A DNA stretch of 64,000 nt. Source: Opitutaceae bacterium (GTDB taxonomy: Bacteria; Verrucomicrobiota; Verrucomicrobiia; Opitutales; Opitutaceae). The translations under genes were made by a program, and so were the position numbers. The stretch spans positions 62,001-126,000 of the forward strand of contig JANQSC010000029.1 in the NCBI GenBank assembly GCA_028284235.1. Reading direction: 5' to 3'. Below are positions 34,406 through 56,745 of the stretch, one piece after another; the first letter of the stretch is position 1; every line of letters starts with the position of its first letter. The notes below the pieces were generated by a model. That model worked only from the letters and a program-made list of their open reading frames with translations. It ran no database searches and was not told the origin of the DNA.

Positions 34406-34580
34406 GTCACCGCCCCGTCACAGACGGGGCTAGGAGCCCCCGCGAAGCGGGGCCAATAAGGATCTCCGACAAGTCGGAGAATTAAAGTTATTCCCCCCAA
34501 AAACCTTATTTGCCTACCGAAGGGAGGCATCCCTATTTCCGCAGCGCGGATCCTAGCCCCGACCTTGTCGGGGCGATGAC
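34406..34580. repeat. Multi-hairpin family A, copy A1
   Basis: Starts GTCACCGCCCCGTC and ends GGGGCGATGAC, beginning 16 bases after the acyltransferase stop. Hairpins in order: GCCCCGTC/GACGGGGC, CCCCGC/GCGGGG, CTCCGAC/GTCGGAG, a weaker GCCTACC/GGGAGGC, CCGC/GCGG and CCCCGAC/GTCGGGG. Linkers are CTAGGAG, CCAATAAGGAT, AATTAAAGTTATT, ACCTTATTTGCC, GGCATCC-CTATTT and GATCCTAG. Confidence 0.8.
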
Positions 34581-34611
34581 AAAAACCCCATTTCCCGAGT
34601 CCTTGAATTAA

Positions 34612-34641
34612 TTGACAGTCTCCAAACCGAAACGCTTTATT
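34612..34641 (+). promoter_or_regulatory. Candidate promoter for the NhaC gene
   Basis: TTGACA at 34612-34617 and TTTATT at 34636-34641, separated by 18 bases, lie 23 bases before the start codon of the antiporter gene. The -35 is perfect and the -10 is weak. Confidence 0.4.
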
Positions 34642-34664
34642 CAGCTCACGCTTTCTCCTCCCTC

Positions 34665-36110
34665 ATGTCGCATCCTACCCCTCGAAAAACCACTTTTCTA
34701 CAAGCCCTTTTCCCCGTCGCCGGTCTCGTCATCGTCCTGACCTACGGCCTGATCATTCGCCCGCAGTTTCAAGAGCTCGCCGCCTTTCCGCTGGAAATCG
34801 TTTTCCTCACCGCCGCCGTCATCGCTATTTCCCAGCTCGCCTGGCTCGGCTTCACTTGGCAGGAGATCCAAGACTCCATCGTAGCCAAGCTCGCCAAAGC
34901 CTTCCCCACCATCCTGATCCTCTTCACCATCGGAATGATCATCGGGAGCTGGATCGTTTCCGGCACGATACCCATGATGATCTACTACGGCATAAAAATC
35001 ATCCATCCGGGATACATCTATCTGATTTCCTTCCTCGTCGCCTCCGTGTTCTCGACGTGTACGGGAACGTCCTGGGGTTCCGTCGGCACCGTCGGACTAG
35101 TCCTAATCGGCGTCGCCGCCACTATCAACGCCGATCTCGCTATCACCGCCGGGGCGATCATCGGCGGGGCCTTCTTTGGCGACAAGATGTCGCCGCTCTC
35201 CGACACCACCAACGTTGCCGCCCTCGCCGCCGAAGTTCCCCTCTGGGACCACATCCAGTCCATGATGTACACCACGATGCCCTCGGCCTTTCTGGCGAGC
35301 ATTCTCTATTTCGTACTGGGCTTCGTGTATCCAGTCGACGCGGACGGGGTCGAAGCGGTCGCTCAAACGGAGTCCATTCTCAGCGGCATCGAAGCCATGT
35401 TCCGCTTCAATATTCTCCTGCTTATCCCCGTCGCCATCGTCCTCTACGGCTCGATCAAACGCAAGGCCACCCTCCCCGTCTTAGTCGCTTCCTCGTTCTC
35501 CGCCTGCCTACTCGCCCTGATTTTCCAGCAGACCACTCTCGCCGACGTCGTCCAGTCGTTGTACAAAGGATACGACACCTCAATGGCGACTTGGATGCCT
35601 GAAATCCCCGAGCAGCTGAGCACGCTCTTCAATCGCGGCGGACTGTACGAGTTGAGCGAACCAGTCATTATTTCCGTTATCGTTTTCGTCTACGTTGGAG
35701 CCATCGACAAGATCGACGCCATGCCACTCATCGTCGATCGGGCCTTCGCCTTCGCCAAGTCGCGCGGAGCCACCATTCTGGCCACGCTCGCTTCCACCTC
35801 CTTCATCAACGCCTTCACCTCCAACCAAATGGCCGCCAGCTTCATCGTCGGCGAAGCCTTCCATAAGAACTACGACCGCAAAGGGATCCCGCGCAAGGTG
35901 CTTTCCCGCTCACTGGAAGATTCGGGAACGATGATCGAGAACCTTATCCCCTGGCACACCACTGCCCTCTTCATCGGCGGCACACTCGGTGTCACTGTAG
36001 CCGAATACTGGCAGTGGCAATTTCTGTCATTAATCAACTTTGTCGTTGCGATCACGCTCGCGTTGACCGGTATCGGTTGTTTCTACCAGAAAACCAAAAC
36101 CGATCCATGA
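34665..36110 (+). CDS. nhaC: Na+/H+ antiporter, NhaC family
   Basis: 481 residues with about 11 predicted membrane helices. Conserved NhaC blocks are TIPMMIYYGIKIIHP, the polar FSTCTGTSWGSVGT and GGAFFGDKMSPLSDTTNVA region that forms the transport centre, and late FTSNQMAASFIVGE with the LEDSGTMIENLIPWHT segment. It exchanges sodium for protons at the inner membrane and fits a marine or saline lifestyle. The stop codon overlaps the start of the next gene (ATGA), so the antiporter and a PLP enzyme are translationally coupled. Confidence 0.9.
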   Translation: MSHPTPRKTTFLQALFPVAGLVIVLTYGLIIRPQFQELAAFPLEIVFLTAAVIAISQLAWLGFTWQEIQDSIVAKLAKAFPTILILFTIGMIIGSWIVSGTIPMMIYYGIKIIHPGYIYLISFLVASVFSTCTGTSWGSVGTVGLVLIGVAATINADLAITAGAIIGGAFFGDKMSPLSDTTNVAALAAEVPLWDHIQSMMYTTMPSAFLASILYFVLGFVYPVDADGVEAVAQTESILSGIEAMFRFNILLLIPVAIVLYGSIKRKATLPVLVASSFSACLLALIFQQTTLADVVQSLYKGYDTSMATWMPEIPEQLSTLFNRGGLYELSEPVIISVIVFVYVGAIDKIDAMPLIVDRAFAFAKSRGATILATLASTSFINAFTSNQMAASFIVGEAFHKNYDRKGIPRKVLSRSLEDSGTMIENLIPWHTTALFIGGTLGVTVAEYWQWQFLSLINFVVAITLALTGIGCFYQKTKTDP

Positions 36111-37309
36111 TAGAGCGCCCCTGCGTCGATCCCAAACTGTTCCCCCTCGATCCCGAAACCGTATTTCTCAATCACGGCTCCTTCGGTAGCTGCCCGCTTG
36201 CCGTACTCGACTATCAGAACGAAATTCGTCTACGACTGGAACGCCAGTCCGTCCAGTTCTACCAACGCGATTTCGAGCCCCTGCTCGACGAGGCCCGCGC
36301 CGCCGTCGGCGAATTCGTCGGCGCCCAGGCCGACGATCTCGTATTCGTCGACAACGCCACCTCCGGCGTCAATACCGTCTTGCGCTCCATCCCCATCGAG
36401 CCCGGCGACGAGCTCCTCGTATCCAACCATGAATACAATGCTTGTAGCAATGCTCTGCGCTACGCAGCGGAAAAGCGCGGAGCCAAAGCTATTACGGTCG
36501 AAATTCCCTTTCCGATAAAGTCGCCCGACGAGGTCATCGAAGCAGCGATGTCGAAAGTCACCGACAAGACCCGCCTCCTCCTCATCGATCACGTCACTAG
36601 CCAGACTGGACTCGTCCTTCCAATCGAACCGATCATTCGCGCATTGGCCGAACGCGGCATCGACACGCTCGTCGACGGCGCGCACGCCCCCGGCATGATT
36701 CCGCTCAATATCGAAAGGCTCGGCGCCGCCTACTACACCGGCAACTGCCACAAGTGGATCAGCGGACCGAAAACGGCTGCCTTTCTTTACGTTCAACCCG
36801 ACAAACAACACGACATTCGACCCCTCACAATCAGCCACGGAGCCAACTCGCCACGCACGGACCGTTCCCGACTGCAAATCGAATTCGGCTGGATGGGCAC
36901 TCGCGACCCTAGCGCGGCCTTGTCCGTCCCCTTCACAATCGACTACATCGGCGGACTCCATCCCGAAGGCTGGGCCGGAATCCGGAAACGCAACCGCGCG
37001 CTCACCCTGGCCGCCCGTACAAAGATTCTCGACGCATTGAATCAATCCGAACCCGCCCCGGAAAGCATGATTGGCTCGCTCGCTTCAATCCCGCTGGAGT
37101 ACCCATCTCTGGGAGAGCCGTATCAGTCACTCCAATACCAATCTAAATGGCAAGAAACGCTCGTGCGAGAACACAACATCGAACTCCCGCTCTTCGCCTG
37201 GCCCGAGCATCCGAAACACATCGCCCGCATCTCCTGCCACCTCTACAACGCGCTCCCGCAATACGAATTGCTCGCCGAGCGACTGGAGGAGCTGAGTGCA
37301 CAAGGTTGA
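36107..37309 (+). CDS. PLP-dependent class V aminotransferase (isopenicillin N epimerase/cysteine desulfurase-like fold)
   Basis: 400 residues from ATG 36107 (MIERPCVDPKLFPLDPETVF), chosen because it overlaps the NhaC stop by four bases. LNHGSFGSCP, FVDNATSGVNTVLRS, DGAHAPGMIPL and YTGNCHKWISGPKTAAF are the blocks of the isopenicillin-N-epimerase subgroup, with the PLP-binding Lys in HKWISG. The substrate cannot be told from sequence; this subgroup includes many enzymes of unknown role. Coupling to an antiporter is unusual and may indicate only shared expression. A family A repeat begins nine bases after the stop. Confidence 0.8.
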   Translation: MIERPCVDPKLFPLDPETVFLNHGSFGSCPLAVLDYQNEIRLRLERQSVQFYQRDFEPLLDEARAAVGEFVGAQADDLVFVDNATSGVNTVLRSIPIEPGDELLVSNHEYNACSNALRYAAEKRGAKAITVEIPFPIKSPDEVIEAAMSKVTDKTRLLLIDHVTSQTGLVLPIEPIIRALAERGIDTLVDGAHAPGMIPLNIERLGAAYYTGNCHKWISGPKTAAFLYVQPDKQHDIRPLTISHGANSPRTDRSRLQIEFGWMGTRDPSAALSVPFTIDYIGGLHPEGWAGIRKRNRALTLAARTKILDALNQSEPAPESMIGSLASIPLEYPSLGEPYQSLQYQSKWQETLVREHNIELPLFAWPEHPKHIARISCHLYNALPQYELLAERLEELSAQG

Positions 37310-37318
37310 CTGTTTATT

Positions 37319-37503
37319 GTCACCGCCCCGATTCCATCGGGGCTAGGAGTCCCCGCACAGCGGGGACAATAAGGATCTCTCCCGCTTTACGGGAGAGAAT
37401 TAAAGTCATTTAAAGATTAAAAACCTTATTTGCCGACCAAAGGGAGGCATCCTATTTCCGCGAAGCGGATCCTAGCGATCCCGCTCAGCGGGTGAGCGAT
37501 GAC
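37319..37503. repeat. Multi-hairpin family A, copy A2
   Basis: Begins GTCACCGCCCCGATTCC and ends GTGAGCGATGAC. Compared with A1 the stems have changed but still pair: CCCCGAT/ATCGGGG, CCCCGC/GCGGGG, CTCTCCCG/CGGGAGAG, CCGC/GCGG and CCCGC/GCGGG. The linkers CTAGGAGT, CAATAAGGAT, ATTAAAGTCATT, ACCTTATTTGCC and GGCATCCTATTT are almost unchanged. It occupies most of the gap between the aminotransferase gene and the convergent PhoD gene. Confidence 0.8.
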
Positions 37504-37531
37504 TTAAAACCAATCTGTCTCAATTTTCCTC

Positions 37532-38590
37532 CTAAAACCGAATCTCATCGAGCGGTATTGTGTATTCGACTCGCTGATTGCCTCGAATGTCCCAGATCTC
37601 GGCTTTCACTCGAGGGGATTCATGATCGAAATCAACCGTCAGCAAACCAAAGTGATTGTCCATGATGGGACCTTCAATCCGGTTTTTGTTCGGAGTGGCG
37701 AATTTCCAAGTCGACGACAAACCGCTCGAGGTGACATCGTAAATTGGATACGTATCCGGATGCTCGAATTTTGAAATTTCACCGTAGTGCACGTCGCCGG
37801 TAATAAAAATCAAGTGGTCCGCTTTTGTCTTACTGACAAGCTGAATCAAGCGTTCTCGTTCGTGAGGAAAATTGGCCCAGGCTTCATAGCCATTGTACTC
37901 GATCGAAAACTGTGACCCCGAGGCGATGATGCGTAGATCCGCCGACTTTTTCAGCTCCTGCTCCAGCCAAGCCCACTGCTTTTTTCCTAGAAGCGTTTTG
38001 GATTTATCCGTGTGAGGAACGTAGTCTAATTTATAGAAAAAACGTTTGTCCGCTTCCTTCCCTTTCGGGAAGCGTTTCAACTTGTCGCGAAAGGTTCGGT
38101 TATCCAGCAGGATAATTTGTATCGTCTTGTCTCCGACAGATTTGTAGACGGAGTGGTAGATTCCCTTGTGGTCATAGCGAGGCGAGTCTTTGGGTTCGTT
38201 GAAGAACTCCAAGAACACCTGCTTAGACGCCTCCTTGTGCGGGTACTCCTTACCAGCGTCGTTGCGCCCGTAATCATGATCATCCCACGTGGCCAAAATC
38301 TCCGTGTTCTGCACGAGGAGCTGGTAGGACTCCTTTTGACCGAGTTGCCCATACTTCTCTCGCAACACATCCATGTCGTCGGTATCCCCGTAGATGTTGT
38401 CTCCCAGGAAAACGAATACATCGGGATTCTGCTTAACGACCTCTTTGAAGATCGGAAGCGGATGAGTCTGTCGACCACACGACCCAAACGCAATTTTGTA
38501 GCTTGAGTCGGAGGCATCACCTGAAGCCGCGGTCAAGAGCTGCCCCGCAGCGGTTAAGAACAAGATAGGTTGTAATAGTATTTTTGTCAT
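37532..38590 (-). CDS. PhoD-like secreted phosphodiesterase/alkaline phosphatase
   Basis: 352 residues with a signal peptide (ILLQPILFLTAAGQLLTAAS). Metal-site motifs of the PhoD/metallophosphatase family are visible: IAFGSCGRQ, FVFLGDNIYGD, ILATWDDHDYGRND, ASGSQFS and FITGDVHYGEI. These bind Ca/Fe or similar ions and hydrolyse phosphoesters outside the cytoplasm. The gene is shorter than many PhoD proteins, lacking the N-terminal Ig-like domain. It opens the more AT-rich stretch described separately. Confidence 0.85.
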   Translation of the reverse strand: MTKILLQPILFLTAAGQLLTAASGDASDSSYKIAFGSCGRQTHPLPIFKEVVKQNPDVFVFLGDNIYGDTDDMDVLREKYGQLGQKESYQLLVQNTEILATWDDHDYGRNDAGKEYPHKEASKQVFLEFFNEPKDSPRYDHKGIYHSVYKSVGDKTIQIILLDNRTFRDKLKRFPKGKEADKRFFYKLDYVPHTDKSKTLLGKKQWAWLEQELKKSADLRIIASGSQFSIEYNGYEAWANFPHERERLIQLVSKTKADHLIFITGDVHYGEISKFEHPDTYPIYDVTSSGLSSTWKFATPNKNRIEGPIMDNHFGLLTVDFDHESPRVKAEIWDIRGNQRVEYTIPLDEIRF

Positions 38591-38629
38591 TTTGTGTTGG
38601 AAATTGTGGAACGTTCGGGAGCCATGGGA

Positions 38630-39343
38630 TCAAGGTAGTTGGCTCGAATTGAGACTATTAGATTGCCCGATACACAGCTCAAACGTTTTAGAAAGGAGCG
38701 CCACTGTAACTACAGTCGTAGCACACCCGAAAATACTCCCAAAAATTGTCCCGATTAAAGTCTCAGGTATAAAATGTGCAGGCAGGTTTATAAGTAGCGG
38801 CATTACTCCTACGAGAAATAGTACCAAAAATTTGTGCTCCTTGGTTAGACGCCAGGATTCTCGAAACGAGAGCTTCTGGTTTATCGCGATAGAGGGAAAA
38901 ACCAGCGAGAGTCTCGCTATGATAAGCAACACCGGAAGAAATCGGAGATTCATAGGAATCTTTGAATCGAGCGGCACAACCAATGTCGTTAGGAACAGCC
39001 ACGGAACAATGATGGCGAACCAGACCCCGATGCTATGCAAAAAAAATGAAGTCTCACGTTTGCCCCAAGCTCTAATGCCCCAGGACGGAATCGAGTTACT
39101 ACCGATTAAGACAACTCGGTGCACAATAATTGCGAGATACACGAACGCAATCAAGCTGGCTATACTCGCTACAAATCTCACCCCTAGTTGAACTCCTTCC
39201 TCAAGTCCTCCAACAAGCTCTCCACGAATCACTAAGTCAGAAGACACAATGATCAAACTTGGAAACGCGACTCCCTGAAGAACACTCCTCTTCCTCACCG
39301 ATAAAATAAGGAGAGTGTTGGAAATTGTGTCAGCGACTACCAT
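38630..39343 (-). CDS. Polytopic membrane protein, 237 aa, unknown function
   Basis: About six membrane segments, starting about residue 20 (a signal-like hydrophobic part) and clear at 55-75, 100-125, 130-150 and 175-215. RESWRLTKEHKFLVLFLVGV resembles the segment seen in membrane proteins with a repeated S-x-x-E-x-W-x-L motif, often near lipid or glycerophosphoryl enzymes. No named family can be given. Its composition is richer in A and T than the flanks. Confidence 0.6.
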   Translation of the reverse strand: MVVADTISNTLLILSVRKRSVLQGVAFPSLIIVSSDLVIRGELVGGLEEGVQLGVRFVASIASLIAFVYLAIIVHRVVLIGSNSIPSWGIRAWGKRETSFFLHSIGVWFAIIVPWLFLTTLVVPLDSKIPMNLRFLPVLLIIARLSLVFPSIAINQKLSFRESWRLTKEHKFLVLFLVGVMPLLINLPAHFIPETLIGTIFGSIFGCATTVVTVALLSKTFELCIGQSNSLNSSQLP

Positions 39344-39402
39344 CGAGCGCTAAGGTGTCACGCGCGCACGAAATGCTGACTTTGACAACTGACTTGTTGG
39401 TC

Positions 39403-39729
39403 CTATTTTCTAAACCATTCATAGTATTGATCTTTGTCCGACTGAATTACCTCTGGTCGGTGGTATCCATATCCTTCTCTTGATTGCGCTGGGTATTCCG
39501 CCACCATGAGCAAATCGCGAAAATCGGTATTCGCCAAATCGATCATCTGTTTTAATCTCTCAAAATTGCCTTCTCCCTCCTTGAGGGCTGCTGCATAGAC
39601 TCTGTAAGATTCTCCATAACCGTGTCGCTTAAGAACTTCCCAAACCTGTTCCACAGAGCACTCCGGATAATCGCGTTTGGCGATTCGATCGATATCCTGC
39701 CTCGTTACAGTTGGCGTATAATCGGTCAT
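39403..39729 (-). CDS. Hypothetical protein, 108 aa
   Basis: Begins MTDYTPTVTRQDIDRIAKRD. The first half (VEQVWEVLKRHGYGESYRVYAAALK) is helical, with Tyr/Trp at regular places. EVIQSDKDQYYEWF ends the protein. No family is recognised; similar short cytoplasmic proteins are often annotated only as hypothetical. It lies between two unrelated small genes on the same strand. Confidence 0.6.
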   Translation of the reverse strand: MTDYTPTVTRQDIDRIAKRDYPECSVEQVWEVLKRHGYGESYRVYAAALKEGEGNFERLKQMIDLANTDFRDLLMVAEYPAQSREGYGYHRPEVIQSDKDQYYEWFRK

Positions 39730-39801
39730 TAGTTTCTAAAGAACGTCGAGCACAGTTCACGGCTGCAGTAATCGTCATTGCCCGACGGCATCTGTTGGAT
39801 G

Positions 39802-40332
39802 CTAGTCAACCAACGCGTTGAGGTTGTCGTTCCAGTAAAAATTGTTTAGTGTCCAATTGTCCGTTGCCTTGTAGAACGTGAAGTTGAAAACCAACACGTG
39901 GTTCCTGCACTTTGCCAAGTAGACGTAATTAGCGAGGGATGGACTGACGAACTCTTCACTGACGAATTCATGACCGATAAACTCGCCAAATCGGTTACTC
40001 AGAAGCTCCAATTGTGGTTTGCTACCTTCAAGCGCATTGTTGATCTCTTTCTCAGGGAGCCATGTGTGCTTTTTGATTACTTCAAACCCTGAGTCGAAGT
40101 CTCCTTTCCCCATGTGGCTCATGATCTCTTCACAAGTGCCCCTAATTTCTTCAGCGTCCTGGATTTGTTCTTCGGTGATGGGGTTGATAGTCGACGTGAG
40201 ATCTTTGTACATCATCAATTTTCGACTGTCGGAAATGACTTTCCGCGCGGCCTCGAGCTCCGCGACGTCGTTGGGTTTTCCGCACCCCAGGAGGAGCGCC
40301 GCGATACATAGGAGTGGATATACTTTATTCAT
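39802..40332 (-). CDS. Hypothetical lipoprotein, 176 aa
   Basis: N-terminus MNKVYPLLCIAALLLGCGKP contains a lipobox (LLGC), so the mature protein would be lipid-anchored at Cys17. The mature part starts with a charged helix (VAELEAARKVISDSRK) and later contains alternating strands (NYVYLAKCRNHVLVFNFTFY). No family is recognised. Confidence 0.65.
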   Translation of the reverse strand: MNKVYPLLCIAALLLGCGKPNDVAELEAARKVISDSRKLMMYKDLTSTINPITEEQIQDAEEIRGTCEEIMSHMGKGDFDSGFEVIKKHTWLPEKEINNALEGSKPQLELLSNRFGEFIGHEFVSEEFVSPSLANYVYLAKCRNHVLVFNFTFYKATDNWTLNNFYWNDNLNALVD

Positions 40333-40349
40333 AAATTTTCGTCCGAGGT

Positions 40350-41372
40350 CTACTTCTCCTTTTGAGTTGTCTTGACCAGATCAGACGTAACCCGGTTAGG
40401 GCATGCGTTTCCTTGATCAATGTCAGTGAGATTTTGCAAGGTTGTCGTTGCAATATTTTTTAAGGCGTCGCTCGTAAAAAATGCCTGGTGCCCCGTAATG
40501 AGAACATTCGAAAAGGTGAGCAACCGCGCGAATGTATCGTCTTCAAGAATTCGATTGGAGATATCCTCAAAAAACAAATCCCCTTCCTCCTCGTACACGT
40601 CTAGACCCAAGTACCCAATTTTTCCTGACTTTAGATTCTTGATCACCGAGCTTGTATCCACCAAGGCTCCTCTACTCGTATTGATCAACATAACACCATC
40701 TTTCATTTTAGAAATGGCCTCGTCATCAATCAGGTGGTAAGTCTCCGGCGTCAGCGGACAATGCAAGCTAACGATATCCGACTTTTTTAGTAGATCCTCC
40801 AGATCCGTATATTGAATACCGTTTGCTGCAAGTGTCTCATTGGGGTACGGATCATAAGCGAGTATAGAACAGCCGAAACCCTTCATGATCTCGCAAAACG
40901 CGAGGCCAATTTTTCCCGTGCCAATCACTCCGACGACCTTTGTGTTCAGATTGAATCCCAGTAGACCCTCCAACAAGAAATTGCCCTCGCGCACCCGGTT
41001 ATAGGCTTTATGTATTTTTCGATTCAAAGCTAGAATCAAGGCAACAGCATGCTCCGCAACACCGTGGGGAGAGTATTCCGGAACGCGAACAACCGAAATG
41101 CCGAGCGACTCCGCCGCCTCTAAGTCTACATTATTGAAGCCAGCGCACCGGAGGGCGACAACCCTTACCCCACTATCTGATAGTTTCGCAAGACACTCGC
41201 CATCCAAGGCGTCATTGACAAACGCGCACACTCCCTCGAACCCCGCTGCAAGGGTCGCATTCGTAGCGTTTAAGTGAGCCTCTAGAAAAACGAGCTCGTG
41301 ACCAAAATTCTGATTCTCTGCTGAGAAAAACTCTTTGTCGTACGATCTTGCGCCAAACACCGCCACTCTCAT
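40350..41372 (-). CDS. ldhA: D-lactate dehydrogenase (D-2-hydroxyacid dehydrogenase family)
   Basis: 340 residues, the size of fermentative D-LDH. The NAD-binding motif GTGKIG is at 151-156, the substrate-binding Arg is in NTSRGALVDT, and the Glu and His are in VYEEEGDLFFED and ITGHQAFFT. The DLFFED segment is characteristic of LdhA-type enzymes. It reduces pyruvate to D-lactate with NADH in the cytoplasm. No partner gene is nearby. Confidence 0.88.
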   Translation of the reverse strand: MRVAVFGARSYDKEFFSAENQNFGHELVFLEAHLNATNATLAAGFEGVCAFVNDALDGECLAKLSDSGVRVVALRCAGFNNVDLEAAESLGISVVRVPEYSPHGVAEHAVALILALNRKIHKAYNRVREGNFLLEGLLGFNLNTKVVGVIGTGKIGLAFCEIMKGFGCSILAYDPYPNETLAANGIQYTDLEDLLKKSDIVSLHCPLTPETYHLIDDEAISKMKDGVMLINTSRGALVDTSSVIKNLKSGKIGYLGLDVYEEEGDLFFEDISNRILEDDTFARLLTFSNVLITGHQAFFTSDALKNIATTTLQNLTDIDQGNACPNRVTSDLVKTTQKEK

Positions 41373-41473
41373 AGCAAACTACCCTTCTCTTGTGTTCCAA
41401 CAAGTTATTCAATGACTCTCAGCGAGCATCCGTGTTGACCCGAGGCTTTTCAAGCTCGATCGACTGGAGAATT

Positions 41474-41671
41474 GTCATCGCCCCGACAAGGTCGGGGCTA
41501 GGAGTCCCCGCGCAGCGGGGCCAATAGGGATCCCCGGCAAGCCGGGGAAATAAAGTCATTCAAAAAATCCCAACTGCCGAGAAAACCTTATTTGCCGAAC
41601 GTAGAGAGGCATCCTTATTTCCCCGACACGTCGGGGATCCTAGCTCTCCCGCGAAGCGGAAGAGCGATGAC
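41474..41671. repeat. Multi-hairpin family A, copy A3
   Basis: Starts GTCATCGCCCCGAC and ends AGAGCGATGAC. Stems are CCCCGAC/GTCGGGG, CCCCGC/GCGGGG, CCCCGGC/GCCGGGG, CCCCGAC/GTCGGGG and CCCGC/GCGG. A CTGCCGAGAAAACCTTATTTGCC insert lengthens the middle. It stands directly before a half copy (A4). Together they fill most of the 429-base gap 41373-41802; the first 100 bases of that gap show nothing else. Confidence 0.8.
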
Positions 41672-41684
41672 AAAAAGTTATTTC

Positions 41685-41775
41685 GTCACCGCCCCGATCT
41701 CATCGGGGCTAGGAGTCTCTGCCGAGCAGAGCCAATAGGATCCCTCCCGCTCGGCGGGAGGGAAATAAAGTCATT
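41685..41775. repeat. Multi-hairpin family A, half copy A4
   Basis: Only the left half is present: GTCACCGC, stem CCCCGAT/ATCGGGG, CTAGGAGT, stem CTCTGC/GCAGAG, CCAATAGGATC, stem CCTCCCG/CGGGAGG, and it ends at AAATAAAGTCATT. The truncation coincides with the centre of the complete copies. It follows A3 after 13 bases. Confidence 0.75.
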
Positions 41776-41802
41776 TACCTCCAATAGCGTCAATGCGTGC
41801 TG

Positions 41803-43322: not shown

Positions 43323-43397
43323 ATGAAGAAAATGCCTTTACAGACCAATCCGATTATCGCAATTATTGCAGTAATCGCAGTAACTGCAATATTATGA
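43323..43397 (+). CDS. Possible 24-residue hydrophobic peptide
   Basis: From ATG 43323 to TGA 43397 the frame reads MKKMPLQTNPIIAIIAVIAV followed by TAIL. The end overlaps the ATG at 43394 (ATGA). The Ala/Ile/Val-rich part resembles a membrane peptide. However, the same bases contain the TTGCAGT/ACTGCAA repeat, which could produce the pattern by itself, and no clear ribosome-binding site is seen. Kept only as a candidate. Confidence 0.25.
   Translation: MKKMPLQTNPIIAIIAVIAVTAIL
43366..43389. promoter_or_regulatory. Candidate operator between CopG-like gene and divergent gene
   Basis: TTGCAGT (43366-43372) and ACTGCAA (43383-43389) form an inverted repeat with a 10-base centre that contains a further GCAGT. 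It lies 55 bases from the start of the RHH gene and just before the divergent gene, so it is a plausible binding site for the RHH protein. Confidence 0.4.
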
Positions 43398-43681
43398 TCA
43401 AAGGAATGGACTCTGAAACAATTCGCCGCTACGCGGTAACACGAAACCAAGTCGACGAAAACGCGGACCTAATCATCTGCATCGCTTCGGTCTTTTCCGT
43501 TCTCGAGGAATGGCCAGACGACCGGATAGAAATCAGTCCCTTTGCCTTGGGCAAACTGAACAACCTAATAACGCTCTATTCATGCCGCATCCTCTCTGCC
43601 TTGGAGGACTTCGCATCTGCCCGGGACGCTGAGGACTTTGTTGAGAAACTGGAAGAAAGCGACGAATCAGGAGAATCTTAG
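43394..43681 (+). CDS. Hypothetical protein divergent from the CopG-like gene, 95 aa
   Basis: The start at ATG 43394 (MIKGMDSETIRRYAVTRNQ) is favoured over 43406 because it overlaps the stop of the small upstream frame; a GGA precedes the second ATG by only two bases. The protein is helical and acidic (LNNLITLYSCRILSALEDFA, then a Glu-rich end). No family is recognised. The arrangement with the RHH gene is reminiscent of a toxin-antitoxin pair in divergent layout, but the sequence does not support a toxin family. Confidence 0.5.
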   Translation: MIKGMDSETIRRYAVTRNQVDENADLIICIASVFSVLEEWPDDRIEISPFALGKLNNLITLYSCRILSALEDFASARDAEDFVEKLEESDESGES

Positions 43682-47731: not shown

Positions 47732-47848
47732 GTCATCGTTCCACGAGGACTCCCTATTTGCTGCAACATGTCTCGGCGTAGTCTCACCAGTGGGACGAAG
47801 ACGGAAGCAGCACCCTAGCCATCCCGTCAAAGACGGGAGAGCGATGAC
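47732..47848. repeat. Shortened, diverged family A copy (A5')
   Basis: Begins GTCATCGTTCCACGAGGACTC and ends AGACGGGAGAGCGATGAC, keeping both end boxes and CCCTAGCC, CCCGTC/GACGGG, but most inner hairpins are lost or altered. It directly precedes copy A5. Confidence 0.5.
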
Positions 47849-47854: not shown

Positions 47855-48063
47855 GTCATCGTTCCTTACTCGCTTCGCTCGCTCGTCACTAGGAGTCTCC
47901 GCCCCGCGGGGCCACTAAAGATCCCTCCCGCTTAGCGGGAGAGAAATAAAGTCATTAGAAAGGGACCTTACTTGCCGATCGAAGGGAGGCATCCTTATTT
48001 CCGCAGCGCGGATCCTAGCCCCGACCATGTCGGGATCTTCGACGAAGCAACGAGAGCGATGAC
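47855..48063. repeat. Multi-hairpin family A, copy A5
   Basis: Begins GTCATCGTTCCTTACTCGC and ends AGAGCGATGAC. The first stem is changed to a GCG-rich form, then CTAGGAGT, stem CCGC-CCC-GCGG, stem CCCTCCCG/CGGGAGAG, AATAAAGTCATT, GGCATCCTTATTT, CCGC/GCGG and GATCCTAG. An extra stem ATCTTCGACGAAG stands near its right end. It lies 73 bases downstream of the mannonate dehydratase stop. With A5' it fills the gap 47653-48136. Confidence 0.75.
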
Positions 48064-49381: not shown

Positions 49382-49453
49382 CAAAGAAACCCAGTTTTCA
49401 AAACACTCACTAGAACACGATTTTAACTAGTTTTGTGACTTCGCTTAGTTGTG

Positions 49454-49600: not shown

Positions 49601-49660
49601 CTAATTCAATTTGGCAGTCCCTAACACTTTACTGAAAAGCGAATTTCACATGGAGTCTCA

Positions 49661-51043
49661 ATGGCAATTCCGCAACTCTCAGCCCATCCCTCAATCTCCC
49701 AATCCCTCAATCCCGTGATAAATAGACGCGACTTCCTAGGCCTCGCAGCGATCGCGGGAATCGCGGCGCCTTCGCTCAACGGCGCCCTCTACTCGAAAAC
49801 CGCCCGCTCGGTTCGCCACAAAATTCCCCGCCAATCGCTCGACGACCTAGTCGAACAATGCAGAACGCAGTTGTTCGACGAATACCTCCCATTCTGGGAG
49901 CACGGCGGACTCGACCGGGAACACGGCGGCATACTCTGCTACCTCTTCGACGATGGCGCGGTCGAAAACGACCGCAAAGACATCTGGTACCAAGGCCGAG
50001 CCATCTGGGTGTATTCATATCTCCACAACGAGATCGACCCGAAGCAAAAGTGGCTGGACGAAGCCCGCCACATTCGCGACTTCATGGTCGCCCACATGCA
50101 TCAGGGCGACGGGACCTGGCTCGACACCGTTAATAGAACCGGTGAACCTGTCGACGGGATCGCGGTCGATCGAGACGGAACCATCTACGGCGCCCTGTTC
50201 GCCGCCGTCGGGCTCATCCAATACGCCCAAGCAACCGGTTCGCAGGAGGACCTGGATCTCGCCGAACTCTCTCTACGCAAATCAATCGAGTGCTACGAAG
50301 ACCGAACCTATCGCGGCGGCATGCTCAGCGACGTGCAAGCGACCGGACTGCGCGCTCAAGGAGTCTCCTTCATGCTCGTGTGGATTCTCCCCCAGCTAAT
50401 CGCCCTCGATCCCGACACCCCCCTCAGACACTGGCTCCGCGCCCACCTCCACACGCTCGAACGCAAGTTCTGGAATCCTGAATACGGCATCTCCAACGAA
50501 TCGCTCTTCCACGACTACTCCCGCATCCCTCGCCACGCCAACCGAATGGTCCCCGGACACAGCATCGAAGCTCAGTGGATGTGCCTCGATGCCGCTCGCC
50601 GATTCGATCTCGATTCCGATCCCGAACTCTTCCAGAACCGCATGCTGCGGCTCATCGAAATGAGCTGGGACTACCCATTCAGCGGCGTGGGCGATACGGC
50701 TTACAATGTATTCAAAACGAAAACACACCCAGCCGGACCCGATTTCGAAACCAAAACCATGTGGGCCCAAACCGAGGTAGCGATCGGCTGTTTGCTGGCC
50801 TTCGCGCATTCCGGCAACACCCAAGCCCTCCAGTGGTTCGACCGCAGTTGGGAATTCCTGCAACGAACCATGACCACGCCACACGGCGTTTGGCGACAAG
50901 CCGTGAACCGAAAAGGCGAGGACAAGCAGCGAGCGGGAATCTCCATCTACCGCAAAGGGAATTTCCACCAGCCGCGGGCGCTGATGTACATTATCCGATT
51001 GGCAACGCAGCTAAAATCGGGCAAACGAGTTCCCATCCTATGA
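49661..51043 (+). CDS. AGE-family epimerase/isomerase with twin-arginine signal
   Basis: 460 residues. NRRDFLGLAAIAGIAAP near residues 21-37 is a twin-arginine signal, so the enzyme is probably exported folded. The (alpha/alpha)6-barrel of N-acylglucosamine 2-epimerase is seen from REHGGILCYLFDDGA, DIWYQGRAIWVYSYLHN, PGHSIEAQWMCLDA and KTMWAQTEVAIG, which carry the usual His and Glu residues. It may interconvert N-acetylglucosamine and N-acetylmannosamine or a related sugar. The stop overlaps the nagA start (ATGA). A GTG at codon 19 is an alternative start. Confidence 0.75.
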   Translation: MAIPQLSAHPSISQSLNPVINRRDFLGLAAIAGIAAPSLNGALYSKTARSVRHKIPRQSLDDLVEQCRTQLFDEYLPFWEHGGLDREHGGILCYLFDDGAVENDRKDIWYQGRAIWVYSYLHNEIDPKQKWLDEARHIRDFMVAHMHQGDGTWLDTVNRTGEPVDGIAVDRDGTIYGALFAAVGLIQYAQATGSQEDLDLAELSLRKSIECYEDRTYRGGMLSDVQATGLRAQGVSFMLVWILPQLIALDPDTPLRHWLRAHLHTLERKFWNPEYGISNESLFHDYSRIPRHANRMVPGHSIEAQWMCLDAARRFDLDSDPELFQNRMLRLIEMSWDYPFSGVGDTAYNVFKTKTHPAGPDFETKTMWAQTEVAIGCLLAFAHSGNTQALQWFDRSWEFLQRTMTTPHGVWRQAVNRKGEDKQRAGISIYRKGNFHQPRALMYIIRLATQLKSGKRVPIL

Positions 51044-51963
51044 CCCCTCTCGATGGAGCCCAGCTATTCGATTTTCAAGTCAACGGATTCGGCGGAGTTG
51101 ATTTTCAGTCGCCCGATCTCGATGTCGAAGCCATGCGCCACGCGGTGGCCGCCCTTTCACAACACCAAACGACACGCATCTTCTTCACACTGATCACCGA
51201 CGATATCGACGCCCTGTGCCGCAAGCTGGAAAACATCGAGTCGCTTCGGACCAAAGACGCCGCAATCGCAGCTATGGTGCAAGGCTACCACCTGGAAGGC
51301 CCTTGGATTTCCACCGAGACTGGATACAACGGAGCACACCCGATCGAACACGCCCGCCATGGATCCATCGCCGACTACCAGCGCCTTCGAGACGCCGCTG
51401 GTGGACGCCTTAAACTCATCACCCTCGCTCCCGAAACGCCCGACTGCCTGCCACTCATCGAAGCTGCAACGTCGGACGGAATCCGTATTTCCCTCGGACA
51501 TACAAATGCCTCCGAGGCGGCGATTGACAACGCCATTCGAGCAGGTGCAACTATGGCCACGCACCTCGGCAACGCAGTGCCCGCGGAAATGCATCGCCAC
51601 GACAATATCATCCAGCGCCTGCTCGCTCGCGACGAACTCATCGCCTGCCTTATCCCCGATGGCATCCACCTGCCTCCATTCGTCCTCAAAAACTACTTCC
51701 GAGCCAAACCGATCGGTAAGGCATTTTTCACTACCGACTGCATGTCGGCCGCAGGCGCTCCGCCCGGACGCTACCAAGTCGGTCCCCACGAAATGGATGT
51801 CGGCTCCGACGGCATCGTCCATCTTCCTGGCGACACCCGCTTCGCCGGCTCGTCCCTCACACTCGACCGCGGAGTCGAGAATATAGCCGAATGGCTAGAC
51901 CTCGCGCCCAAAGACGCGATCAGCCTTTGCTCCGACATTCCCGCAGAGTATTTTGGTATCTGA
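51040..51963 (+). CDS. nagA: N-acetylglucosamine-6-phosphate deacetylase, short form
   Basis: 307 residues from ATG 51040 (MTPLDGAQLFDFQVNGFGGV), chosen for its ATGA overlap with the epimerase stop; the frame is open further upstream but lies inside the epimerase gene. Metal and substrate residues are in YHLEGPWISTETGYNGAHP, SLGHTNASE, THLGNAVPAEMHRHD and PDGIHLPPF, with catalytic Asp in FFTTDCMSAAG. Usual NagA proteins are about 380 residues; this lacks the N-terminal part of the beta-sandwich. It removes acetate from GlcNAc-6-phosphate in the cytoplasm. Confidence 0.85.
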   Translation: MTPLDGAQLFDFQVNGFGGVDFQSPDLDVEAMRHAVAALSQHQTTRIFFTLITDDIDALCRKLENIESLRTKDAAIAAMVQGYHLEGPWISTETGYNGAHPIEHARHGSIADYQRLRDAAGGRLKLITLAPETPDCLPLIEAATSDGIRISLGHTNASEAAIDNAIRAGATMATHLGNAVPAEMHRHDNIIQRLLARDELIACLIPDGIHLPPFVLKNYFRAKPIGKAFFTTDCMSAAGAPPGRYQVGPHEMDVGSDGIVHLPGDTRFAGSSLTLDRGVENIAEWLDLAPKDAISLCSDIPAEYFGI

Positions 51964-51993
51964 CATAATCGATGTATCCAATAAATCGAAAAC

Positions 51994-52072
51994 GTAGGGC
52001 TGGCGCTTGCGCCATGCCGAGGATGTAGCTAGAAACTCAACCTACGCGGCGCTTCGCAAGCGAAGGCCCTAC
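51994..52072. repeat. GTAG-type REP pair, copy B3
   Basis: GTAGGGCTGGCGCTTGCGCC opens it and CTTCGCAAGCGAAGGCCCTAC closes it. The hairpins GGCGC/GCGCC and CTTCG/CGAAG are visible. It lies between nagA and nagB. Confidence 0.75.
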
Positions 52073-52119
52073 GGGAGAGTTAACGTAGATCTTTCTAGTA
52101 AACAATTTCTTCAATAACT

Positions 52120-52914
52120 ATGACCGAATCCGAACTTCCATCACCCATTCGCTCCTTCCAGTCCGACCGACTTCAAGTCGCGATCTACCCCGACCGCCCG
52201 TCGATGGGGGCCGCTGCCGCCCGCGCGGTTGTCGCCCATCTCAAAGAACTGCAATCGACAAAAGACGAGATCCGAATCCTCGTCGGAAGCGCTCCGTCGC
52301 AGGACGAGTTTTTCGCCAGCCTGACCACTTCCACCAACGCTTCTCAAATCGACTGGAGCCGCATCGTCGTCTTTCACATGGACGAGTACGTCGGGCTCTC
52401 CGCTGATCACCCGCAGAGTTTTCGCGCCTACCAACAAACGCACTTCGTGGGTAAAGTGAATCTGAAAGCCTTTCACGCCATCCGCGGAGAAGCGCCCGAC
52501 CCAGAAGCGGAATGCGAACGACTCAGCGCCCTCCTCGCCGAAGCGCCACTCGATCTCGCCTGCTGCGGAATTGGCGAAAACGGTCACCTCGCCTTCAACG
52601 ATCCACCCGTCGCAGACTTCAACGATCCCAAGCTCGCCAAGATTGTCGCCATGGACGCGATTTGCCGCCAACAGCAAGTCAACGATGGGTGCTTTCCCAC
52701 ACTCAACGCGGTGCCCACTCACGCCATTACACTGACACTGCCAGTATTTTCAAACGCCGCTAAGCTCAGCTGCGTCGTCCCCGCCACCACCAAGGCCAAC
52801 GCCGTCGCCGCCACAATCAACGGCCCCATCTCCACCGAGTGCCCCGCCACCCTGCTCCGCGAACACCCCAACGCGACCCTCTTCCTCGAACCGAATTCGG
52901 CATCCAAACTGTAG
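52120..52914 (+). CDS. nagB: Glucosamine-6-phosphate deaminase
   Basis: 264 residues, near the usual 266. VGSAPSQDEF stands in the phosphate-binding part, VFHMDEYVGLSADHPQSF contains the Asp general base and family signature, and CCGIGENGHLAFNDP contains the catalytic His-loop. It converts GlcN-6-P to fructose-6-P and ammonia. It acts after nagA, from which it is separated by 156 bases holding a REP pair. Confidence 0.9.
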   Translation: MTESELPSPIRSFQSDRLQVAIYPDRPSMGAAAARAVVAHLKELQSTKDEIRILVGSAPSQDEFFASLTTSTNASQIDWSRIVVFHMDEYVGLSADHPQSFRAYQQTHFVGKVNLKAFHAIRGEAPDPEAECERLSALLAEAPLDLACCGIGENGHLAFNDPPVADFNDPKLAKIVAMDAICRQQQVNDGCFPTLNAVPTHAITLTLPVFSNAAKLSCVVPATTKANAVAATINGPISTECPATLLREHPNATLFLEPNSASKL

Positions 52915-52931
52915 ACCGGAGCATTGAGTCT

Positions 52932-53009
52932 GTAGGGCTGGCGCTTGCGCCACGCCGCGTATTCTTGTTTGAAAGTTCATTCGCGGCATGGCACCAGCGC
53001 CAGCCCTAC
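52932..53009. repeat. GTAG-type REP pair, copy B4, overlapping the symporter stop
   Basis: Opens GTAGGGCTGGCGCTTGCGCC and closes GCACCAGCGCCAGCCCTAC. Its right-hand GTAG (minus strand, 53009-53006) supplies the TAG stop codon of the symporter gene. It lies between the convergent nagB and symporter genes. Confidence 0.75.
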
Positions 53010-54712
53010 AACAACGATATCCGATACACCAAATAGATAATCGCAACCACACACAACCATCCCACCGCGAATCCAGCGACCGATCGCTTTGACGGAACTG
53101 GTATTTCCAATTCCGTTTTCGGAAAAAACACCCGCCTCGGCAATGGCTCAACCCCCGCGGGAATCCGACACGGCTCGCCGCTCTCCGGCTCTTCGCCTAG
53201 TACCGGCGTCCGCGTCAGCGCATAATAGCGCTCCAACTTCTCTCTATCCGGTCGCCGCGAAACGAAACTGACAACTACCCCCACGATCACCCCGACCGAC
53301 AAATAGAAGATCATCTGCCACGGCAGCGAGACGAGGGTCCCGGTTTCCGACTCTTCGACCATTCGAGCGCTCACCGCCCCCGGAACGCCAGCCAGCCAAT
53401 CCACAAAGAACGACTGGGTCGAAATCCACCAGGTGAACAACGCTGCCAATGTCGACGCCCACGCTGCCGCAGTCGTGGCGCGCCTCCAAAACAAGCCCAT
53501 CCAAAACGCGATCCCCATCATCGGCCCGATCTTCCAAAGAATCTCCAGCCCTTGAATGACTCCAGAAAGCCAATACGCGTACAACACGCCCAATACCACG
53601 ACCCCGCCCGAAGCGAATCGAGCGACGCGTAGATAGTGGCCTTCGCTTTTGTCGGGAAAGCTCTTTTGGTAGACATTGCGCGTAAACAAGGCCGAAGCCG
53701 CAATCATAAACGAGTCGCACGAGCTCATCACAGACGCCAACAGCGTCGCGATAAACAACCCCAACGCGCCAGGAAGCAGCCCCGGCAAAAACTCCTTCGC
53801 CAGCAATCCGTATAGATTATCCGGATTCACCGTCTGCCCCGCGTAGAAAGCCAGACCCGCCAAACCGGTCAGACACCAGGCCACCGTGCAAAAACGTTTC
53901 GTAAAACTCCCCACCATGAACCCGAACTGCCCCTCCCGCTCCGTTCTCCCCGCCGCGCAATTGGCCAAAATGTGAGGCTGGGTAACGATCCCGATCAGCG
54001 CGTTGATAGAGATTATCGTTATGTAGAAAACGCCAATCCCTTCGGGCGCGGAAAGCGAAAACACGGCCGGATCGTTGATCGTCGCCCGAATCCCATCGAA
54101 TCCGCCCACGGCGCCCATGACCGATGGCAGCAAAAGGAAGGAAAAAGCAATGGTGAGAATGCCCTGCACAAAATCGGTCACGATCGCCGCGCTCAAACCG
54201 CCGGCTGCTCCGTATCCAACAAACAGGAGCGTCATAAATATTATCGCGACCTCCGAAGAGATCGCCCCGCCACTAGCGCCCTCGATCACCGCGCCCGATC
54301 CCTTGAGCATCAGACCGATCGTTGTAATCATCATTACAATACTGATCAACGAATAGAGAATCGCCACACCGCGACTGTAGCGCAGCTCGAAAATGTCCGC
54401 CGTCGTCAAGGCGCGAAAGCGACGCATCATGGGGGCGATCAGCCAGTAAAACGGCGTGCCGAACAAATAGAGCCACTGGTACCAAATCCCCGACAAGCCG
54501 CTGGTGTAGGTTTTCGACGCCACCCCGACCGCTTGATCCGAATGCGTGCCGCTTCCAAACGCGTGCATCGTCAACATCCACTTGCCAAAACGACGCGGCA
54601 TAATGAAGTCCGACACCTGCTTGACCTTCCGAAACGAAAGCGCCCCCAGCAACGTCACGCCCGCCAGATACGCCAATAAAACGACAACGTCGACTACACT
54701 GATACCGAACAT
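53006..54712 (-). CDS. Sodium:solute symporter (SSS family)
   Basis: 568 residues and about 13 membrane helices. The SSS core is visible from FGSGTHSDQAVGVASK (helix 1-2 sodium site), GGLSAAIVTDFVQGIL, and ASVMSSCDSFMIAASALFT, which forms the conserved sodium-binding region. A long extension of helices and a cytoplasmic Arg/Glu-rich loop near the end precede a final helix. The proximity to nagA/nagB suggests uptake of an amino sugar or a related sugar; the gene is convergent with them, so this is inference. The final residues are fixed by a REP element. Confidence 0.85.
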   Translation of the reverse strand: MFGISVVDVVVLLAYLAGVTLLGALSFRKVKQVSDFIMPRRFGKWMLTMHAFGSGTHSDQAVGVASKTYTSGLSGIWYQWLYLFGTPFYWLIAPMMRRFRALTTADIFELRYSRGVAILYSLISIVMMITTIGLMLKGSGAVIEGASGGAISSEVAIIFMTLLFVGYGAAGGLSAAIVTDFVQGILTIAFSFLLLPSVMGAVGGFDGIRATINDPAVFSLSAPEGIGVFYITIISINALIGIVTQPHILANCAAGRTEREGQFGFMVGSFTKRFCTVAWCLTGLAGLAFYAGQTVNPDNLYGLLAKEFLPGLLPGALGLFIATLLASVMSSCDSFMIAASALFTRNVYQKSFPDKSEGHYLRVARFASGGVVVLGVLYAYWLSGVIQGLEILWKIGPMMGIAFWMGLFWRRATTAAAWASTLAALFTWWISTQSFFVDWLAGVPGAVSARMVEESETGTLVSLPWQMIFYLSVGVIVGVVVSFVSRRPDREKLERYYALTRTPVLGEEPESGEPCRIPAGVEPLPRRVFFPKTELEIPVPSKRSVAGFAVGWLCVVAIIYLVYRISLL

Positions 54713-54787
54713 GGAAACGAGAGACCACGCAACCCTATCCTCTCGTTTAAGACAGCCTCAATCCAGAATTACGGTAAAACATTTAAC

Positions 54788-54997
54788 GTCATCGCCCCGA
54801 TCCTATCGGGGCTAGGAGTCTCCGTTTCGCGGAGCCAATAAGGATCCCCGACAAGTCGGGGAACTAAAGTCATTCAAAAAATCTATCTGCCGAAAGAACC
54901 TCATCCGCCGAGAAAACCTTATTTGCCGACCAGAGGTCGGCATCCTTATTTCCGCAGCGCGGATCCTAGCGAACCCGCCAAGCGGGTGAGCGATGAC
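54788..54997. repeat. Multi-hairpin family A, copy A6
   Basis: Begins GTCATCGCCCCGATCC and ends GGTGAGCGATGAC, seven bases from the sulfatase stop on the minus strand. Stems are CCCCGAT/ATCGGGG, CTCCG/CGGAG, CCCCGAC/GTCGGGG, GCCGACC/GGTCGGC, CCGC/GCGG and CCCGC/GCGGG. The symmetric linkers (AATAAGGAT against ATCCTTATT, CTAGGA against TCCTAG) are all intact. It fills most of the 54713-55004 interval. Confidence 0.85.
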
Positions 54998-55004
54998 AAT
55001 ATCG

Positions 55005-56378
55005 TTATTTTCGCTCCGCATCCACCAAATACAAATGCGCGAGAAGCCGATTCTTCATCGCCTCGGCACGTTGAGGATCATCGGTGATTTCGCGCCCCTC
55101 TTCCGTCGGATTGGGTTCAACTTGGTAGAGCGCCGTTCGATCGACAGAGCCACTCTCATTCCAGTAAACCATGAGCTTGTAGTCGCCTTCGCGTATGGCC
55201 GACTCCCCGCGATCCGGGCGATGAAAAAACAGAGCCTTCTGGGGGCGTTCAAACGCGTCTTGCGTCTCGTCGCGAAACAAGGGCTCTATGCTCGCGCCGT
55301 CCACTTCGCTCGTCAATTCCTCCGCCTCGCCCCCGGCGATGGCGTAAAAGGTCGAAAGCAAGTCATATCCAGCAACCGGCACGGTACAGATGGAACCGCC
55401 TTGTATCCCTGGACCAACGACAATAAACGGCACACGTATCCCACCCTCCAGTAGTTGATGCTTCGCCCCAGACAAGGGGAAGTTCGGGGCCGCTCTATTC
55501 CCCCTTCCCCCAGGCACGCTGCCACGTCCGCCATTGTCGGTAGTGAAAACTAAATAGGTATTCGAATCGACTCCGAGTTTTTCCACTGCGTCCAGTAATC
55601 TTCCCACTCCTGTATCCAATTCTTCAAGCATAGCCGCCCAAGCTGGCGTGTATTTCCGATCCGGAACGCCCTTCGCTTCGTACTTATCAAGTAGCCGTTG
55701 ACGAGTGACCACCGAAAGATGCTGAGCATAGTAACTCACTTGCACGTAGAATGGATTGTCGCTCTCAACCTGTTCAGTCATGAACTCGATCGCGCGATCG
55801 GTAACCGTCACTGTTCTTTTCGGGTCTATGTCGTCTATAAAATGCGGAGGACCGTCGCCATGCCGCCCCGATTCAACTCCGAGTGTGGTAGGCATGCCTC
55901 CTGTGCCGTTGGAGGTCATACCATCACTCGCATCGTATCCACATTGTTCGGGCGTCGAGATCATTTGACTTCCCCATTTCCCAAAATGAGCCGCACGATA
56001 TTTCGGATCCACCGCCTTGAGCGCCTTCGGGATAGTCAAGTGCTCGGCAGGAATCCAATTTGGGCTGGCAAACTCCGTTCCGCTCCGCGCAGCCGTCGTG
56101 CCGCACAGGATCGACCGACGTGTCGGAGTGCACAGCGGAGCGGGCGAATACCCGCTCGTAAAACGACGGCCTTGCTCAATCAGTCGCTCCAGGTTCGGCG
56201 ACTCCAGGTAGTCTGACTTTGAATTTTCAATACGAGGATCCATATGGGCCGACAATTGGCTCCATCCTTGATCGTCAGTCAAAATTAGCAGGATATTGGG
56301 GACAGCAGCAAACACGCTGGGAACAGACCACGCGAGTAGAGCTGCCAGGATCGTGGAACGAAGAGTTGGAATTGGCAT
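55005..56378 (-). CDS. Secreted sulfatase
   Basis: 457 residues with a signal peptide (ILAALLAWSVPSVFAA). Residues PNILLILTDDQGWSQ include Asp35 and Asp36. The formylglycine segment is LCTPTRRSILCG with Cys83, fitting the C-x-P-x-R consensus. TTDNGGRGS and a GGIRVPFIVVGPG block follow. It removes sulfate from an external carbohydrate. The family A repeat directly after the stop probably forms part of its transcript. Confidence 0.88.
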   Translation of the reverse strand: MPIPTLRSTILAALLAWSVPSVFAAVPNILLILTDDQGWSQLSAHMDPRIENSKSDYLESPNLERLIEQGRRFTSGYSPAPLCTPTRRSILCGTTAARSGTEFASPNWIPAEHLTIPKALKAVDPKYRAAHFGKWGSQMISTPEQCGYDASDGMTSNGTGGMPTTLGVESGRHGDGPPHFIDDIDPKRTVTVTDRAIEFMTEQVESDNPFYVQVSYYAQHLSVVTRQRLLDKYEAKGVPDRKYTPAWAAMLEELDTGVGRLLDAVEKLGVDSNTYLVFTTDNGGRGSVPGGRGNRAAPNFPLSGAKHQLLEGGIRVPFIVVGPGIQGGSICTVPVAGYDLLSTFYAIAGGEAEELTSEVDGASIEPLFRDETQDAFERPQKALFFHRPDRGESAIREGDYKLMVYWNESGSVDRTALYQVEPNPTEEGREITDDPQRAEAMKNRLLAHLYLVDAERK

Positions 56379-56519
56379 TCCTCGATAGACCTTCGCCCCC
56401 CGACGCCTGTCAACAATTTACGACGCGGATTCACTGACTCAATAAATTCCTCGTTCAAAATCCGCGTTAACCCCCATACGAACCTGTATCCAACATTTGC
56501 TCCTCACGAAAAAATGTAT

Positions 56520-56745
56520 GTCATCGCCCCGACCCTATCGGGGCTAGGAGTCTCCGCCGCGCGGAGCCAATAAGGATCACCGACAAGTCGGTGAATTAAA
56601 GTCATTCTCAAAAACCTATTCGCCAAGAAAACCTTATTTGCCGAGAAAACCTTATTTGCCGGCCGAGGGTCGGCATCCTTATTTCCGCAGCGCGGATCCT
56701 AGCCCCGACCGCGTCGGGGTCTTCGACGAGCCCGCGAGCGGTGAT
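56520..56745. repeat. Multi-hairpin family A, copy A7
   Basis: Begins GTCATCGCCCCGACCC and ends near GCGGTGATA. Stems are CCCCGA-TCGGGG, CTCCGC/GCGGAG, CACCGAC/GTCGGTG, GCCGGCC-GGTCGGC (imperfect), CCGC/GCGG and CCCCGAC/GTCGGGG, plus CTTCGACGAG near the right end. The A-to-T exchange in CACCGAC pairs with GTCGGTG. It lies between two divergent genes in the 430-base gap 56379-56809; no gene is seen in the rest. Confidence 0.8.

Follow-up and report, generated by a model that had tools for sequence, protein, structure and literature searches.

Integron attC sites are recognised as a folded single strand and are variable in sequence, and the double-hairpin elements of fungal mitochondria are mobile hairpins whose stems vary; we know of no nuclease linked to the latter. 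The closest description that we found for the elements reported here, six complete copies of which lie in a 64,000-nucleotide stretch of an Opitutaceae bacterium (contig JANQSC010000029.1, positions 62,001 to 126,000; hereafter the window), is that of REPtrons and TIRtrons: according to PMC3733652, RAYTs (Y1 transposases) are thought to move repetitive extragenic palindromic (REP) sequences, and a TIRtron is a gene enclosed by long inverted repeats. Like these systems, ours combines many gene-less intergenic palindromes with rarer copies that flank a putative mover gene (PMC3733652); unlike them, the enclosed gene encodes a PD-(D/E)XK nuclease, known as GxxExxY, and not an HUH/Y1 transposase. 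The palindrome also differs from REP and REPIN sequences in being composed of four words with hairpins in the gaps, at a length of 175-226 bp in the six copies, and in its grammar, which by eye lacks a GTAG or CGTC tag next to a hairpin of 20-40 bp. It resembles miniature inverted-repeat transposable elements in being short, non-coding, built of inverted repeats, present in many copies and precise at its ends, but its arms are chains of hairpins, no target duplication was seen, and no parent transposon came to light among the genes between or recurrently beside the arms. The mitochondrial double-hairpin elements share its mobility and varying stems, but theirs are two hairpins in an organelle, whereas ours is a palindrome of chained hairpins; attC sites offer a parallel in folded-strand recognition with variable sequence, but their architecture is different, and we know of no integrase or gene cassettes in our case, for which no search was made. 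We consider it probable, though well short of certain, that the six copies are gene-less, non-autonomous elements of a mobile system based on a GxxExxY nuclease; the mobility of the elements is well supported, and the role of the nuclease is what we infer.

Architecture of the palindromic elements

Each half-element follows a grammar of four words, A (GTCAYCG), B (CTAGGA), C (AAT(A)AGGAT) and D (AATAAGGT), in this order and with a hairpin in each of the three gaps. In a complete element a left (L) half is followed, after a short spacer, by a right (R) half in reverse complement. The initial annotation of this DNA, which had proposed a palindrome of six small hairpins with arms that are themselves chains of hairpins, was right on both counts, there being three hairpins per arm, and all six of its copies were recovered in their places: 34406..34580 (L half 34406-34488, R half 34503-34580), 37319..37503 (37319-37406 and 37423-37503), 41474..41671 (41474-41556 and 41585-41671), 47855..48063 (47855-47952 and 47965-48063), 54788..54997 (54788-54870 and 54916-54997) and 56520..56745 (56520-56602 and 56649-56745, with the ACCTTATTTGCC word again in its spacer), all on the plus strand with their R halves on the minus strand. 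The boxes that it had described as constant and in fixed order are indeed present, but they are only near-constant, matching exactly in 2 to 6 of the six copies: GTCATCGC in three (the remaining copies carry GTCACCGC or GTCATCGT), CTAGGAGT in five, CCAATAAGGATC in three, AATTAAAGTCATT in two, ACCTTATTTGCC in five, GGCATCCTTATTT in four, GATCCTAGC in six and GCGATGAC in five.

The spacer measures 12-52 nt in 26 of the 28 listed L-R pairings, which leaves no room for a gene, and the L and R halves of one element are mostly of different types, with no hairpin in common in the 16 pairs that were parsed. Because the hairpins of half-elements range from 5 to ~50 nt in length while the words are kept, the words are likely to meet only in the folded state. 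The two copies that were folded, 56520 and 41474, gave z-scores of -5.6 and -7.7, respectively, and none of 200 shuffles was as good.

Three further pieces of the family occur in the window. An extra L half-element (41685..41771, plus strand), for which no R half was found, lies 14 nt past the element at 41474..41671 and is the source of the CCCTCCCG/CGGGAGGG stem quoted in the initial annotation; a degenerate element with an R-type half (47732..47848, minus strand, 17.6 bits, its start placed by eye) lies 6 nt ahead of the element at 47855; and a diverged lone half-element (26271..26371, minus strand, 25.5 bits) lies beyond the range of that annotation.

Copying, placement and distribution of the family

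The elements are copied precisely and as whole units. Three copies at C66 are 0.90-0.95 identical inside and 0.47-0.55 in their flanks, with ends at GTCACCG and CG(A/G)TGAC, so the unit copies as a whole with exact ends; for a pair of copies at C80 the identity is 0.82 inside and 0.56 and 0.54 in the flanks. A pair at C10 was rejected as a transposition pair, since its right flanks match at 0.89 and it is apparently a segmental duplicate. The elements are also present or absent at the same site in different species: in the congener G007 one lies with an antiporter gene on one side and an aminotransferase gene on the other, and that site has no element of the hairpin-chain family in the source genome, G001, G002, G004, G006 or G009, while the 1.3-kb gap of G005 at the same site gave no hit to our family model R1 (see below). 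Gene-less palindromes of CGCAAAG/CGCTAAG-like words were seen in the gap where G007 carries its element (L144 6080-6260, L148 1690-1830). Likewise, the element at 34406 was not seen past the orthologous gene end in G004, G005 or G007. Placement is intergenic, in that 130 of 138 half-element hits are not mainly within an open reading frame (ORF) of at least 120 aa, whereas 2245 of 2760 random windows are. Left flanks are often rich in T and right flanks in A. Nothing indicates that the copies are fragments of an ordinary insertion sequence, one of the findings that the initial annotation had named as refuting its own view. We hold with high confidence that the elements are real, mobile and maintained at the level of DNA.

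A parser for the four words with free gaps, applied to the window and to fetched parts of the 6.1-Mb genome, returned 68 half-elements, six of them over-extended. The covariance-model search that had been suggested at the outset reveals a large family: R1, for which 14 left halves were used, finds 114 matches in the source genome at E <= 0.1, and 138 at E 0.01 in a smaller fetched set of it. A generic model (R2), searched in the genus only, matches 10 of 11 genomes, the source included, with counts from 111 (source) to 0 (G010). With stricter filters R1 matched one of 177 genomes of the order, namely the source genome, and in a search of relatives it matched 8 of 38, again including the source; G027, which belongs to another family of the order, is the sole one outside the genus, and the three of its seven matches that were read (L064, L071, L078) show a hairpin chain that is distinct from ours and built on other words. 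Scanning 84,980 species for the repeat pattern gave 12 stretches, which come from three metagenome assemblies with Opitutales or Opitutaceae in their titles, and no relative was found in the viral contigs searched. The source genome itself harbours further hairpin-chain families (L095 1485-1580, L100 2490-2640, L026 1600-1700), with the words AACAGGAT and CCCATCG/AATGGG.

Stem covariation and pairing in DNA

That the stems covary, as first annotated, was borne out in the 138 R1 hits: all 19 modelled pairs change on both sides, in 501 cells against 128.7 after shuffling, 93.2% of cells are paired against 68.1% after shuffling, and the covariation score of 0.449 compares with 0.132 for shuffled data and 0.034-0.062 when the partners are slid, upon which the signal is lost. 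Covariation was similar with congeners added to the alignment, both alignments being fitted to the structure and to that extent biased towards it.

The initial annotation had allowed for a structure in either RNA or single-stranded DNA, and the choice can be narrowed towards DNA. Among 146 parsed hairpins (of 153 distinct ones) there are 968 Watson-Crick pairs, nine G·U, 15 A·C and 69 other pairs, in a count that scores G·U and A·C alike and includes no RNA positive control. G·U is tolerated in RNA under selection; that it is not in excess over A·C here suggests that the hairpin pairing is maintained at the DNA level, on both strands, and not in RNA. Of the features expected of a structured RNA, covariation is thus present and an excess of wobble pairs is absent. 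A transcribed RNA selected for its fold, be it a small RNA, an mRNA 3' stabiliser or a terminator, would nevertheless account for the covariation and also for the location of the elements, which often lie just past gene 3' ends (at a distance of <= 50 bp in 24 of 38). Convergent genes flank 13 of 28 pairings, whereas 65 of 261 adjacent ORF pairs are convergent. Such an RNA would not account for the presence and absence of elements at orthologous sites; moreover, no T-run follows directly past the outer arm in the flanks listed, and the window has no Rfam match at gathering score, in keeping with the annotator's failure to recognise a described repeat (one of eight weak matches, RF00183 with E 0.33, overlaps an element). 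On the pair-type test and the evidence for mobility we rejected structured RNA as the leading reading, and regard it as improbable.

Copies that are otherwise almost identical may differ in an entire hairpin. In the C66 trio one hairpin reads CTCGC..GCGAG in one copy and CCCCGC..GCGGGG in the two others, and what separates the C80 pair is a hairpin module of 30 nt within the loop of hairpin 1, with similar nested modules in other hairpins at C57, C74, C10 and C11. At a locus of a GxxExxY gene common to the source genome and G008 (L205 1480-1851, L218 1489-1860), the words are almost unchanged, the hairpins differ and the gene is inverted: with the flanks in one and the same orientation, these align at 0.70 and 0.79, and the gene itself aligns at 0.71 reversed against 0.49 direct. 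Swaps of whole stems, as opposed to single compensating bases, would fit the copying of one arm from the other.

GxxExxY nuclease genes between inverted repeats

The initial annotation had suggested a search for a RAYT or other transposase gene flanked by the same boxes; this proved the right test, but the gene that it uncovered is a GxxExxY nuclease and not a RAYT. An R1 pair at C38 (95440-96097), with family arms of 44.8 and 25.8 bits, encloses a 123-aa gene of PF13366/TIGR04256, the GxxExxY nuclease, and in G008 (3856156-3856921) a GxxExxY gene lies between two near-identical complete family elements (R2 40.2/67.2 and 34.5/70.4 bits). The source genome has six GxxExxY (PD-(D/E)XK) genes; with a flanking inverted repeat called at a score of at least 30, five of the six score at least 35, and the sixth, at C15, scores 24 and lies by eye between two complete hairpin-chain elements. 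Hairpin chains, each with words of its own, enclose the genes at C38, C70, C2 and C15, and simple trains of one repeated word enclose those at C44 and C49.

We extended this comparison to 93 GxxExxY loci from the genus, the order, the phylum and six plasmid records, which are the best-scoring matches (at most 30 per search) and not a random draw. Of the 92 that could be scored (L243 is interrupted by a contig end), 69 have flanking inverted repeats as opposed to 6 of 191 control ORFs (Mann-Whitney p 1.4e-34), with 19 of 32 in the genus, 22 of 28 in the order, 24 of 26 in the phylum and 4 of 6 on plasmids (present in Gemmatirosa, Bacteroides, Bernardetia and Sphingomonas, absent in Treponema and Prevotella); the figure is 67 of 89 after removal of double counts (L225/L230, L223/L231 and L228/L234 are pieces of one gene each). 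Intergenic-matched controls reach the threshold in 13 of 135 cases (Fisher 8e-25), and one of these 13 is itself a GxxExxY gene (L087 15573-15944). These figures supersede a first statistic, in which 10 of 28 GxxExxY loci exceeded the 95th percentile of the controls and gene bounds were poor or controls rich in elements. Folding of both flanks separates the loci poorly, with z < -2 on both sides in 6 of 86 from the genus, order and phylum. A 6-mer word is found at least three times over in 49 of 68 arms, compared with 12.9% of arms after shuffling, and since ACAGGAT, a word of the hairpin chains in the source genome, is also used in trains at L279 and L294, a hairpin chain can be read as a word train with its gaps filled by hairpins. 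Some sites recur in relatives: at C49 and in G007 (L208, L212) the GxxExxY gene has an isocitrate/isopropylmalate dehydrogenase-family gene on one side and an alanyl-tRNA synthetase gene on the other, the C49 and G007 proteins being 39% identical with different flanking words, and another lies beside ATP synthase genes at C44 and in G008 (L203, L226).

In 34 GxxExxY proteins D66, K78 and Q90 are invariant and E76 is conserved in at least 90%, which defines a PD-(D/E)XK site. Likeness of the profile to T7 endonuclease I (two matches, at E 0.23 and 0.27, in which the D and ExK residues align) and to Cas4-like nucleases is weak and not significant by sequence alone: at a loose cut-off Pfam reports Cas4 in 18 of the 34 members (best E 0.0023) and phage endonuclease I in four (best 0.0093), and all five rows against PDB are weak, the best being the unrelated-looking lmo1582 (E 0.023). 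T7 endonuclease I cuts branched DNA, and the folded element would present branch points in a row, a parallel that is suggestive only. Names or accessions of the nuclease are mentioned in PMC8934634 and PMC12085832, in passages that are not concerned with repeats, and in PMC9756366; among the papers listed by searches of the open-access literature, judged by title and the opening of the abstract, we found no description of nuclease-linked palindromes of this kind, and earlier notice elsewhere is possible.

Movement by a RAYT, which would make the elements an elaborate REP/REPIN family, agrees with the three Y1 (RAYT-type) matches and the REP-type repeats in the source genome and with the part ascribed to RAYTs in the passages of PMC3733652 cited above. 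However, two of these Y1 genes are flanked by GTAGGGC-type and AAGGTGGAACGC-type repeats (both of which also occur in the window) and the third by neither, the half-element model finds nothing in 30 Y1 loci of the genus, flanks of up to 1.5 kb at either end included, many Y1 loci carry other palindromes, and the GTAG tag is missing; we thus deem this explanation very improbable. In the window, GTAGGGC..GCCCTAC palindromes of an ordinary REPIN-type family (51990-52072, 52932-52962, 63330-63412) resemble the repeat flanking the RAYT gene at C17:126174 (L031), and AAGGTGGAACxCGCCGTCCCGGCG repeats (29413-29442, 30946-30975) are as those flanking the RAYT at C75:86481 (L032), a similar copy being inserted within a family element at C18:39265. 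A search for genes recurring near the elements returned one large cluster of 25 ORFs in 16 of the regions searched, apparently sulfatases (one window member has PF00884), which we took to be presumable genome background. Separately, DNA at 43391-43657 of the window is repeated at 75-82% identity on C80, C53, C60 and C49 and overlaps a 174-aa ORF without a Pfam match.

Several observations weigh against assigning the elements to a nuclease-based system. Gene-bearing loci with arms of the exact family number two (C38 and G008), the other GxxExxY genes having other words; 23 of the 92 loci score below 30; and the number of family copies does not follow that of GxxExxY genes across congeners (111 and 6 in the source, 37 and 7 in G008, 0 and 4 in G010, 1 and 0 in G006). 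No target duplication is visible in 28 L-R pairings inspected by eye without a close empty site, the arm-to-arm pairing shows no covariation in the 16 parsed L/R pairs, so that the local hairpins alone covary, a single-sequence fold model of the nuclease was unusable (predicted local distance difference test, pLDDT, of 40.5), and we know of no PD-(D/E)XK nuclease that acts alone as a transposase. Alternatively, the palindromes could be spread by a host process, for instance slippage during replication or a switch of strands at a hairpin, or by another transposase, with the GxxExxY genes as mere passengers within them. The great excess of gene-less over gene-bearing copies speaks for this, the whole-hairpin swaps and nested hairpin inserts resemble strand switching, one gene is inverted in place between its arms, and, although no transposase was found between the arms or recurrently beside the elements, DDE families were not searched genome-wide. 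On the other hand, the tie between GxxExxY genes and inverted repeats holds across the phylum and on plasmids from three other phyla, with different words at different loci, which chance settling would hardly produce, and we consider the passenger explanation unlikely, albeit worth keeping in mind.

The element is an inverted repeat of four words in which the gap hairpins are free in sequence provided that they stay hairpins. Once the DNA becomes single-stranded or cruciform, the hairpins would fold away and the words would become adjacent, giving a stem with branch points. Under the nuclease-based mechanism that we favour, the words would then serve as recognition sites for the small PD-(D/E)XK GxxExxY nuclease encoded between arms of the same kind, which may cut the folded palindrome at or near the branch points and thereby launch or land copies, acting in cis on elements that bear the gene and in trans on those that lack it, like the six in the window. 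Repair that copies one hairpin arm from the other would change the stems as whole, nearly perfect units.

More broadly, we tentatively propose that GxxExxY nucleases, together with the trains of inverted words on either side of their genes, may form an unrecognised, widespread class of mobile DNA, in which a lone, possibly junction-cutting PD-(D/E)XK enzyme would recognise folded palindromes by their hairpin-joined words and drive a wholesale turnover of the stems through which they stay paired, the window elements being its gene-less form. This would offer a candidate enzyme for palindromic repeats that lack a RAYT explanation, and a possible function for a nuclease family that occurs in 173 of the 288 genomes sampled from the phylum and is little mentioned in the literature searched. 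It also provides a case where the covariation of genomic hairpins seems to reflect DNA rather than RNA.

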